NCBI GenBank assembly: GCA_021820845.1
Contig: JAKADC010000002.1
Location: 186,001 to 250,000 of the forward strand
From: Pseudomonadota bacterium
GTDB lineage: Bacteria > Pseudomonadota > Gammaproteobacteria > Burkholderiales > Thiobacillaceae
Length of the DNA stretch: 64,000 bases
Reading direction: 5' to 3'
The position numbers and the translations under genes are program-made. Below the pieces are notes generated by a model. The model saw only the letters and a program-made list of their open reading frames with translations, made no database searches and was not told where the DNA came from. Positions 28,383 through 31,747 of this stretch are shown one piece after another. Numbering within the stretch: position 1 is the first letter of the stretch; every line of letters starts with the position of its first letter.

Positions 28383-28473
28383 GGAGAGGTGGATGAGCGG
28401 TTTAAGTCGCACGCCTGGAAAGCGTGTTTAGGGTAATACCCTAACGCGGGTTCGAATCCCGCCCTCTCCGCCA
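28383..28473 (+). tRNA. tRNA-Ser(GGA)
   Basis: 91 bases including an encoded 3' CCA. The acceptor stem GGAGAGG pairs with CCTCTCC. The anticodon stem CACGC/GCGTG encloses the loop CTGGAAA with anticodon GGA at 28417-28419, reading UCC and UCU. A long variable arm (GTTTAGGGTAATACCCTAAC region), typical of serine tRNAs, precedes the GCGGGTTCGAATCCCGC T-arm. No terminator or repeated 3' end indicating an integrated element was seen downstream. Confidence 0.96.
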
Positions 28474-28695: not shown

Positions 28696-29445
28696 ATGCC
28701 AAAACACGCCTATCACGGCAGGCTTTCCGTCGTTGTTCCTGTCAGGAACGAGCAGGACAATGTGGAACCGCTGGTCCGCGAGATCGCGGCGGCGCTGTCC
28801 GGCAATACCGTCTTCGAAATCCTTTACGTCAACGACGGCAGCACCGACGCGACACAGGCGCGGCTTGACGCGTTGAAAGCCGAATTCCCGATGCTGCGTG
28901 TGATCCGCCACCGCAGTTCGTGCGGACAGAGCCGTGCCGTCACGACGGGCGTCGCCGCGGCGCGCTACGAGTGGATCGCGACGCTCGATGGCGACGGACA
29001 GAACGATCCGGCCGATATCCCCGCGCTCGTCGCTACGCTGTCCGACCCGGCACAGCCTTCCAACCTGGAGCTCCTCGCGGGCTGGCGCGCGCGGCGCAAC
29101 GACACCTTCCTGCGCCGGCTCTCGTCGAAGATCGCCAACGGCGTGCGCTCGCGGCTGCTGCGCGACAACACGCCCGACACCGGCTGCGGGCTCAAGGTCT
29201 TCGCGCGCGAGACCTTCCTGCAACTGCCCAACTTCGATCACATGCACCGCTTCCTGCCGGCATTGGTGATGCGCAACGGCGGGGCGGTCGTCTCGGTTCC
29301 GGTCCACCATCGCGCACGCGAGCGCGGCACCTCCAAATACGGCGTGCACAACCGGCTGTGGGTGGGAATCGTCGACCTCTTCGGCGTGGCTTGGCTGCAG
29401 CGGCGGGTGCGCCTGCCGGTCATCGAACCGGATTCAGACCTGTAA
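28696..29445 (+). CDS. Family 2 glycosyltransferase, polyprenyl-phosphate sugar synthase-like
   Basis: 249 residues. GT-A fold with LSVVVPVRNEQDN at the N-terminus, VNDGST, and the catalytic LDGDGQNDP near residue 96-104. The HRSSCGQSRAV block and the overall length resemble dolichyl/undecaprenyl-phosphate mannosyl- or glucosyltransferases (DPM1/ArnC type), but the C-terminal membrane helices of ArnC are absent. It probably moves a sugar from a nucleotide to a lipid phosphate in the cytoplasm. The next gene starts immediately after its stop (TAAATG), and the third encodes a GT-C enzyme that would use such a donor. Confidence 0.8.
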   Translation: MPKHAYHGRLSVVVPVRNEQDNVEPLVREIAAALSGNTVFEILYVNDGSTDATQARLDALKAEFPMLRVIRHRSSCGQSRAVTTGVAAARYEWIATLDGDGQNDPADIPALVATLSDPAQPSNLELLAGWRARRNDTFLRRLSSKIANGVRSRLLRDNTPDTGCGLKVFARETFLQLPNFDHMHRFLPALVMRNGGAVVSVPVHHRARERGTSKYGVHNRLWVGIVDLFGVAWLQRRVRLPVIEPDSDL

Positions 29446-30162
29446 ATGAAGGCACGCGTCATCGTCAAGGGCCTGGCGCTGATATTGAGTCTCGCGCTGC
29501 TGGGGTATCTGTTCGAATCCAGCGGACTCGGCAACAGCGTCAACGAAAGCTGGATCGATGCGCGCGTGCGCGGCCACGGGATCGACGGCGCGCTGCTGTT
29601 TCTGCTGATGGGCGGACTGTTCACCGCCATCGGATTGCCGCGCCAGATCATCGCCTTTCTTGGCGGCTACGCGTTCAGCGTAGGGCTGGGCACGGTGCTC
29701 GGCACGCTGGCCGCGGTGCTCGGATGCATGCTGAGCTTCGCCTACGCGCGCCTCTTCGGCAAGGGCCTGCTGCGTGCCCGGCTGGGCGAGCGCGCCGGCC
29801 GCTTCGATCGCTTCATACATGAGCACCCCTTCGCCATGACCGTTCTGGTGCGCCTGCTGCCAGTCGGAAACAACCTGCTGACCAATCTGGCGGCTGGAAT
29901 CTCCAGCATCCGGCCGCGATTCTTCTTTGCCGGCACGCTGCTCGGTTATCTGCCGCAGACCCTGGTGTTCGCGCTGGTCGGGAGCGGGGCCCACATCGCT
30001 CCGGCCCTGAAACTCGGACTTGCGATCGGCCTGTTCCTGATCTCGGGGGCGCTCGGCGCCTATCTCTACCGGCATTTCCGACACGGCCAGAGCCTCGACG
30101 AGAAGATCGATGCGGCGCTGGAAGAACCTGACATGGGCGAACATGAATCCACGACATCCTGA
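29446..30162 (+). CDS. VTT-domain (TVP38/TMEM64/DedA-like) membrane protein
   Basis: 238 residues with about six hydrophobic segments. The region LPRQIIAFLGGYAFSVGLG followed by RLLPVGNNLLTNLAAG is characteristic of the SNARE-associated/VTT fold (PF09335), with the re-entrant loop and conserved Gly and Arg. Some DedA-family members recycle undecaprenyl phosphate across the membrane. Lying between a lipid-phosphate GT2 and a GT-C enzyme suggests a role with the lipid carrier, but that is inference. The start directly follows the GT2 stop, with no gap. Confidence 0.8.
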   Translation: MKARVIVKGLALILSLALLGYLFESSGLGNSVNESWIDARVRGHGIDGALLFLLMGGLFTAIGLPRQIIAFLGGYAFSVGLGTVLGTLAAVLGCMLSFAYARLFGKGLLRARLGERAGRFDRFIHEHPFAMTVLVRLLPVGNNLLTNLAAGISSIRPRFFFAGTLLGYLPQTLVFALVGSGAHIAPALKLGLAIGLFLISGALGAYLYRHFRHGQSLDEKIDAALEEPDMGEHESTTS

Positions 30163-31747
30163 TTCCTCCGGGCGCGGCCTCCTCGCGCTGAGTCTGCTGC
30201 TGCTGGCGGCGCTGACGGCCGTCGCGTTCTTCACGCGCCCGCTGACCCCCATCGATGAAACGCGCTACGTCAGCGCGGCCTGGGAGATGTGGCTGCGCGG
30301 CGACTTCCTCGTGCCGTTCAAGAACGGCGCGCCGTACAGCGACAAGCCGCCTTTCCTGTTCTGGATGTTCCAGGCCGGCTGGGCCGTGTTCGGCGTGAAC
30401 GAATGGTGGCCGCGCCTGGTATTGCCGCTGTTTTCCGGCGGCGGCTTGTTCCTGACCTATCGGCTCGCCCGCCGCCTCTGGCCGAAGGACGCCGCGATCG
30501 GCGGCCAGGCCGCGCTGGTGCTCGCCAGCGCGCTGCTGTGGATCGTTTTCTCCACCTCGGTCATGTTCGACGTGATGCTCGCTTTCTGGGCGTTGCTCGG
30601 CCTGCACGGCATCGTTGCCGCCGCCGACGGCAAGCGTGGCGGTTTCGTCGTGATGGGGATCGCGATCGGCCTGGGCGTGCTGACCAAAGGCCCGGTCATT
30701 CTGCTGCATCTGCTGCCGGTTACCGCGCTCGCGCCGTGGTGGAATCCGGGCCTCAATTGGCGCCGCTGGTTCGGAGGGACGCTGCTGGCGGTGCTGCTGG
30801 GTGCGGCGCTCGCCTTGGCGTGGGCGTTGCCGGCAGGCTTCTCCGGCGGCGAGGCCTATCGTAATGCGATCTTCTGGGGCCAGACGGCCAACCGCATGGT
30901 CGAATCCTTTGCGCACCGGCGGCCATTCTGGTGGTACGTGCCTTTGCTGCCGCTGCTGCTGTTCCCCTGGTTCGCCTGGCCGGCATGGTGGACGGCGTTG
31001 CTGCAACATCGCCGCGCAGGCCTCGATCGCGGCTCGCGTTTCTGCCTGGCCTGGATGCTGCCGGTATTCATCGCCTTCTGTTTCATCAGCGGCAAGCAAC
31101 CGCATTACCTCGTGCCCCTGTTTCCCGCCTTCGCATTGCTGACGGCGCGCCTGCTCGTCGGGCGCACGACGGCGCGCACCGGCCTGCCGGCATTGCTGGC
31201 GGTGGCGCTGGGCGCCGCGCTGATCCTTGCCGCGAGCGGGCAGATCGCCGCCGTGCGCAGCCAGGCCGTGACCCTGCCGCCGCTGTGGCCGGGTGTTGTC
31301 CTGATCGCGCTGGCCGGGGCAGCGTGGCTGGCGGGCCGGCGCGGCATGCCGCCCGTACCGACTCTGGCGCTCCTCGGCGCGGCCTCGATGATGCTGGTGC
31401 AGGTGAGCGCCAAGGATTCGATCGAACCCCGGTACGACGTCAAGCAGATGGCGCTCGCGATCAAGCAGGTCCAGGACGAGGGGCGGCCGGTCGCGAACAT
31501 CGCGACCTATCACGCCCAATACCAGTTTCTTGGCAGGCTGAAAACGCCGCTGGCGGAGGTGAGGGGAGAAAACGCGGCTCGCTGGCTGGCGAGCCATCCG
31601 GACGGTTACGCCGTCGTGTATGTGTCTGGCAGGCGCGCGCTTGGCCCGATTCACGCGCGGTTTGAACAGCCTTATCGCGGCGACAAGGCCGTTCTGGTGG
31701 ATGCAGCGACGGCTGCCAGGCTCCTGGCAGCCGGCGCTGCGAAATAA
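30143..31747 (+). CDS. ArnT/PMT-family GT-C glycosyltransferase
   Basis: 534 residues with roughly a dozen membrane segments. The first periplasmic loop has PIDETRYVSAAWEMW, the acidic catalytic motif of the PMT/ArnT fold, then YSDKPPFLFW, as in family GT83/GT39-like enzymes that move a sugar from a polyprenyl phosphate to lipid A or protein in the periplasm. The ATG at 30143, inside the end of the VTT gene (20-base overlap), gives a natural N-terminus; an in-frame ATG at 30110 is also possible. The acceptor is unknown. Confidence 0.82.
   Translation: MNPRHPDSSGRGLLALSLLLLAALTAVAFFTRPLTPIDETRYVSAAWEMWLRGDFLVPFKNGAPYSDKPPFLFWMFQAGWAVFGVNEWWPRLVLPLFSGGGLFLTYRLARRLWPKDAAIGGQAALVLASALLWIVFSTSVMFDVMLAFWALLGLHGIVAAADGKRGGFVVMGIAIGLGVLTKGPVILLHLLPVTALAPWWNPGLNWRRWFGGTLLAVLLGAALALAWALPAGFSGGEAYRNAIFWGQTANRMVESFAHRRPFWWYVPLLPLLLFPWFAWPAWWTALLQHRRAGLDRGSRFCLAWMLPVFIAFCFISGKQPHYLVPLFPAFALLTARLLVGRTTARTGLPALLAVALGAALILAASGQIAAVRSQAVTLPPLWPGVVLIALAGAAWLAGRRGMPPVPTLALLGAASMMLVQVSAKDSIEPRYDVKQMALAIKQVQDEGRPVANIATYHAQYQFLGRLKTPLAEVRGENAARWLASHPDGYAVVYVSGRRALGPIHARFEQPYRGDKAVLVDAATAARLLAAGAAK

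Follow-up and report, generated by a model that had tools for sequence, protein, structure and literature searches.

Alternation of a VTT-domain protein with LAB_N beside a soluble GT2 gene suggests a shared role in a lipid-linked sugar pathway

Introduction

Three-component glycosylation systems, which also go by the naming CsbB-GtcA-YfhO, combine a polyprenyl-phosphate glycosyltransferase of family 2 (GT2), a membrane protein and a glycosyltransferase of the GT-C type. This study deals with a cassette of similar make-up, a soluble GT2 gene, a gene for a VTT-domain membrane protein and an ArnT/PMT-type GT-C gene, which lies in a stretch of 64,000 nucleotides (hereafter the window) from a Thiobacillaceae bacterium of the phylum Pseudomonadota (assembly GCA_021820845.1, contig JAKADC010000002.1, positions 186,001 to 250,000). 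For the GtrA/GtrB/Gtr type of three-component system, GtrA is called a proposed flippase in a PNAS article of 2024, according to which direct evidence of flippase activity is lacking for the proteins it discusses (PMC11127046). The trio of the window differs from these systems in that its GT2 carries no membrane helices and its middle protein belongs to VTT and not to GtrA, SMR or MATE. No flippase of these known kinds was found beside the trio, only VTT_dom being present between GT2 and GT-C. The logic of a GT2 acting together with an ArnT-like GT-C is likewise that of the ArnC/ArnT aminoarabinose and LgmA/LgmB glucosamine pathways of lipid A modification, and a flippase of the former is reportedly the subject of a paper by Yan and colleagues from 2007. 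In Bordetella, lgmA to lgmC are described as required and lgmD as not essential (PMC4993483), and LgmB is presented as the enzyme adding glucosamine (PMC11401268).

The middle protein of the trio has the VTT/DedA domain (PF09335) in common with UptA and DedA (COG0586). In the account of Todor et al. (2023), flipping of undecaprenyl phosphate is assigned to COG0586, with acidic residues in loop 1 and two arginines in loop 2, while COG0398 proteins, kin of eukaryotic scramblases, are judged unlikely to flip undecaprenyl phosphate for lack of those residues, and the function of bacterial COG0398-type VTT proteins is described as open (PMC10127716). The crossing of membranes by polyprenyl-phosphate sugars is thinly documented, and the replacement of VTT by the LAB_N family beside the same soluble GT2, which is reported here, bears on both the flippase and the COG0398 question. 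It also offers a clean test, since two unrelated families would be expected to replace each other in one pathway and loop residues can be named for mutation. For LAB_N, whose Pfam name refers to lipid A biosynthesis, it suggests a definite role that experiments can address. Among the best matches listed in searches of open-licence papers (VTT, TVP38 or COG0398 with glycosyltransferases; LAB_N or LpxB-like with flippases or carrier lipid), none describes such a module by its title or the start of its abstract.

Results and discussion

The GT2 gene (28696..29445, plus strand) encodes 249 residues (Pfam Glycos_transf_2, 1.9e-24), and its stop codon TAA directly abuts the ATG of the VTT gene (29446..30162, plus strand; 238 residues; Pfam VTT_dom, 6.6e-22). 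The GT-C gene (30143..31747, plus strand; 534 residues from the inner ATG; Pfam PMT_2, 7.7e-13) starts inside the VTT gene, with an overlap of 20 bases, or of 53 bases if the alternative earlier ATG at 30110 is used (30110-31747, 545 residues). The head-to-tail trio and the zero-base junction of its first two genes, both claimed by an earlier first-pass annotation of this DNA, are therefore borne out. That annotation had also proposed to look for the same triplet elsewhere. A scan of genome contigs for the GT-C yielded 48 loci, 44 of which keep the order GT2, VTT, GT-C on one strand (including L025, which has a GT2 fragment only, and L038, with its GT-C over two frames). Two exceptions are cut by contig ends (L011, L052), and the other two (L040, L051) are GT-Cs of 58 and 57% identity with neither GT2 nor VTT nearby. 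As the genomes are mostly related and Thiobacillus-type, these are not 44 independent cases; the linkage of the trio is more than chance. PF09335 was found in 18 of 18 members, and GT2 is the most conserved protein of the trio, with 76-95% identity versus 52-91% for VTT among 17 relatives. The host genome measures 2.85 Mb, and its nearest named relatives by GT-C and GT2 are Thiobacillus-type records.

Outside the Thiobacillus set, 117 further soluble GT2 loci were classed by their next gene with profiles built in this analysis. This gene was LAB_N in 64 loci, VTT in 25 and neither in 28, and no locus had both. The LAB_N loci, which come from the same phylum, thus share the soluble GT2 family with the trio but have LAB_N in the place of VTT. 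A GT-C follows in 22 of the 25 VTT loci and in 27 of the 64 LAB_N loci, as counted with a profile whose seeds came from the Thiobacillus side, so that some GT-Cs may have escaped it. One LAB_N protein was confirmed against Pfam (PF07578, 1.3e-33); the family belongs, as we assume, to the MtN3/SWEET-like clan of Pfam. In LAB_N genomes PF07578 matches adjoin the GT2 places, with one extra copy in G462. The phylum-level GT2 scan, in which 97 genomes matched, added 60 new loci from 60 genomes, and the 117 loci leave out those with long ArnC-like GT2s (L129, L130, L131, L133, L150, L151, L152) as well as Thiobacillaceae loci L146-L149. The 28 loci with neither partner include one GT2 cut by a contig end (L108, counted here but excluded from the GT2 tree and the genome-wide partner table) and six with a GT-C directly next.

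More weight than on these counts, which the kinship of the genomes makes non-independent, was put on a GT2 tree of 73 rows (34 LAB_N, 32 VTT, 7 none). On the best tree at least seven switches between VTT and LAB_N are needed, and even if only well-supported branches are considered, the VTT label must have changed three or more times; the program flagged long branches, including L117 with L123. Both partners are found within a single genus code (g83: G080 with VTT, G205 with LAB_N) and within a single family code (f182: G542 with LAB_N, G653 and G331 with VTT). In seven loci in which LAB_N and VTT are absent (L243, L245, L249, L252, L257, L260, L273; all from genomes outside the class of the window) the GT2 is followed by a small protein of about 140-190 residues with four hydrophobic stretches. 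Three of these proteins were scanned and had no Pfam match, and homology among the seven was assessed by visual inspection alone; perhaps they are a third alternative in the slot.

In a genome-wide partner table, with genome lists compiled by hand, PF07578 was absent from all 29 genomes that have an adjacent VTT and were searched for it (18 and 10 genomes besides the window's own; G595 not included). Vice versa, VTT relatives scoring 70 bits or more were absent from all 59 LAB_N-adjacent genomes of the class and phylum sets; the five LAB_N genomes from the order level do not enter this side of the table. Of the genomes whose GT2 was classed with neither neighbour, seven carry a VTT relative (81 bits or more) at another place and no LAB_N (G134, G116, G213, G232, G977, G933, G701). 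A further six (G862, G808, G1022, G694, G722, G070) have LAB_N at another site or, in reversed orientation, next to the GT2, and no VTT relative at 1e-9.

The VTT proteins linked to GT2 are also distinct by themselves. All 22 tested ones form one clade (support 99/98) apart from the remaining VTTs found in the sampled genomes; the single row labelled as other inside this clade is the same gene as L085. The term other VTT refers to the nearer ones, because 39 of 65 further VTT loci were missed by the VTT profile; L184 (score below 15) was excluded from the tree, and L171 (same locus as L085), L181, L193, L183 and L160 were excluded from the residue counts. In the first re-entrant loop, R66 (codons of R66-Q67 at 29641..29646, plus strand) is present in 22 of 22 linked VTTs and in 10 of 10 new ones, but in 0 of 20 others. 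The second re-entrant loop, RLLPVGNN (codons of R136-N143 at 29851..29874, plus strand), ends in N143, which 21 of the 22 linked VTTs and all 10 new ones possess and which is a phenylalanine in 20 of 20 others, while R136 occurs in all aligned VTTs. Q171 (29956..29958, plus strand) is kept in 21 of the 22 linked proteins and in all 10 new ones, against 0 of 20 others. All ten out-of-sample linked VTTs keep R66, Q67, R136, G141, N143, Q171 and G181. The linked VTTs carry a signature of PRQ and G[NS]N, whereas LPG or LPS and a phenylalanine at the position of N143 are seen in most other aligned VTTs. The alternation of LAB_N and VTT beside the same soluble GT2 and the clade of linked VTTs with its loop signature are what is new here.

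Read as a whole, the trio is rather probably a module of three components for glycosylation in the periplasm: GT2 would charge the carrier, VTT would move the sugar-lipid and GT-C would transfer the sugar. Judged by its family, the soluble GT2 would act at the inner face and pass a sugar from its nucleotide onto polyprenyl (undecaprenyl) phosphate. The VTT protein would then bring the polyprenyl-phosphate sugar across the membrane, as LAB_N would do in the sister loci, and, being scramblase-like, it may also allow the spent carrier back. At the periplasmic face the ArnT-like GT-C would, again by family, move the sugar to an acceptor. Neighbour clustering did not reveal any recognisable recurrent sugar-nucleotide gene that would name the sugar. 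The lipid-linked sugar pathway suggested by the first-pass annotation is well supported by the conserved trio and by the solved relatives of its GT2 and GT-C. As VTT and LAB_N never share one GT2 in the loci examined and occupy the position of the proposed flippase of three-component systems, both most likely do the same job, and moving the sugar-lipid across is the most likely one by analogy with these systems. Alternatively, both might return the carrier or tether the GT2, and the swap alone cannot choose between these jobs. The more specific proposal is that the VTT clade, which is near TMEM41B/VMP1 by its residues, represents a dedicated polyprenyl-phosphate-sugar translocase that is interchangeable with the unrelated LAB_N, both filling the flippase slot of one widespread periplasmic glycosylation system. 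We regard this proposal as evenly balanced.

Several points weigh against the module reading. The swapping as such shows an equivalent or alternative job without naming which, and neither a function nor a flippase experiment for LAB_N (PF07578) was found in the open-licence papers searched. The LAB_N side appears to be a looser module, as an adjacent GT-C was detected in only those 27 loci. Of the inner branches of the GT2 tree 24 of 70 are open and many deep ones are weak, and the counts suffer from the kinship of the genomes mentioned above. One linked VTT, the divergent L127, lacks N143, and a Foldseek comparison of the VTT model (mean pLDDT 77) retrieved no solved PDB structure at E up to 0.001, so that the fold comparison is uninformative. 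Fourteen GT2 genomes have neither partner at the thresholds used. Moreover, the VTT protein can exist without a soluble GT2 at these thresholds, since in seven genomes (G190, G258, G316, G880, G954, G969, G996) a VTT relative scores 70 bits or more and no soluble GT2 was listed. One of them, G316, belongs to the window's own family and has a VTT of 58% identity.

These seven genomes would be in line with a VTT protein that is an ordinary phospholipid scramblase and stands in the operon by chance, as would its subfamily, which judged by residues is the one akin to eukaryotic scramblases. The adjacency to GT2 in 44 of 48 relatives and in 25 of 117 further loci, together with the separate clade and its loop signature, makes such a coincidence very improbable. 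The first-pass annotation had held that separation of the three genes in relatives would speak against its reading. Such separation does occur, both in the seven genomes with a VTT relative away from the GT2 and in the seven others without a listed GT2, and it counts in part against that reading.

A second alternative is that the VTT protein only returns undecaprenyl phosphate, and that flipping of the sugar-lipid falls to a different protein such as a GtrA encoded elsewhere in the genome. Some bacterial VTT-domain proteins are indeed reported to flip undecaprenyl phosphate (PMC10127716, PMC12826051), and in 10 of the 48 loci VTT and GT-C are separated by a gene, whole or fragmentary, for a PAP2 phosphatase. 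The gene, a PAP2-superfamily phosphatase gene on the opposite strand, is present in nine of them (L014, L015, L020, L021, L023, L028, L029, L037 and L039, the last apparently broken), with a remnant in L013. However, loop 1 of the window's VTT protein (GLPRQ) contains no acidic residue and loop 2 has only one of the two arginines that mark flippases of undecaprenyl phosphate (both judged by eye), which fits the description of COG0398 proteins, although these are set apart from the trio VTT by its PRQ and G[NS]N signature and its GT2 linkage. No NCBIfam match was obtained for the protein at 0.001, UptA included, and a PDB sequence search with the VTT profile returned only four MarR regulators with E values of 0.6 to 0.8, taken as chance.

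The genome also offers other candidates for the tasks that this alternative distributes. A further VTT protein (L003, contig C6), a fusion with a PAP2-like part, gives matches below cut-off to both UptA (48.5 bits, cut-off 250) and undecaprenyl-diphosphatase. The single GtrA match of the genome lies on contig C12 (L276:5019-9028) beside a second GT-C, in a set that also comprises a PgfS/ArnC-like GT2 (below cut-off) and a deacetylase-like gene with matches to HpnK and chitin disaccharide deacetylase below cut-off. Besides the trio, the genome therefore has a candidate for general recycling as well as a GtrA set of the conventional kind. The C12 set presumably resembles amino-sugar lipid A loci, and it adjoins an open reading frame that reads like a response regulator. 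Furthermore, a general recycler would neither be expected mainly in genomes with this one GT2, which accompanies the VTT relative (70 bits or more) in 13 of 15 and 16 of 21 genomes (own genome in both; the remaining 2 and 5 are those named above), nor to swap with LAB_N. Given its loop residues and the presence of another candidate recycler, carrier return alone appears less likely, and we consider this alternative as a whole unlikely. The recycling of undecaprenyl phosphate by a DedA-type protein, proposed for the middle gene by the first-pass annotation, is weakened as its main role by the loop residues and the absent UptA match, and is not favoured in view of the LAB_N swap, either.

Regarding the GT2 itself, no window of 19 residues has a Kyte-Doolittle mean above 1.1, so that no membrane helix is predicted, in agreement with the annotation's statement that this ArnC-like enzyme lacks its usual helices. 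Its best NCBIfam match is ArnC (90 bits, cut-off 529), and its profile matches the solved structures of ArnC, sll0501 and DPM synthase. The DGS and DGDGQ segments as well as the segment RLWVGIVDLFGVAWLQRR near its end are invariant in 18 rows, and we regard it, with features of the synthase type, as a candidate DPM1/ArnC-like polyprenyl-phosphate glycosyltransferase. The predicted structure was poor (score 63). Soluble GT2s of this kind are spread across the phylum and are distinct from the longer ArnC-like proteins by identity and length. One genome contains two soluble GT2 genes (L136, G595:C207), one of them on a separate contig and 90% identical to that of the window, which may be due to assembly contamination.

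A GT2 without helices adjoined by the gene of a membrane partner also raises the possibility that VTT and LAB_N are membrane platforms for this enzyme, with flipping being spontaneous or carried out by the GT-C. The six loci in which a GT-C comes right after the GT2, neither LAB_N nor VTT intervening (L104, L224, L267 and L272 among them), would fit such a platform. Nevertheless, LAB_N is present in the genomes of L224 and L228, and a VTT relative scoring 81 bits or more lies elsewhere in the genomes of L089, L267 and L272, which leaves the genome of L104 as the sole one with neither partner at the thresholds used. Moreover, conserved polar residues in the two re-entrant hairpins would be superfluous in a mere anchor, and a platform role is in our estimation quite improbable.

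The GT-C has ArnT as its best NCBIfam match (120 bits, cut-off 567), and its profile matches the solved ArnT 5ezm (9.5e-18). Unlike in the ArnC/ArnT and Lgm pathways, the cassette contains no deacetylase. An Arn-type aminoarabinose pathway was considered for the trio and rejected, as the ArnC and ArnT scores are both far below the curated NCBIfam cut-offs and as the second GT2/GT-C/GtrA set with a deacetylase-like gene sits elsewhere in the genome. In L038 the frame of the GT-C is divided over two frames in the assembly, perhaps by a sequencing error or in a broken gene. In a Propionivibrio record (L040:4543-5565) the related GT-C adjoins a gene of the sugar-nucleotide epimerase family (Pfam Epimerase) and not a GT2/VTT pair.

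Immediately upstream of the cassette, a tRNA-Ser (GGA) is located at 28383-28473 of the window, and beyond it follow GrpE-, DnaK- and DnaJ-like open reading frames on the other strand, which were named by eye. Downstream of the cassette, an hfq gene, recognised by Pfam, lies on the other strand.

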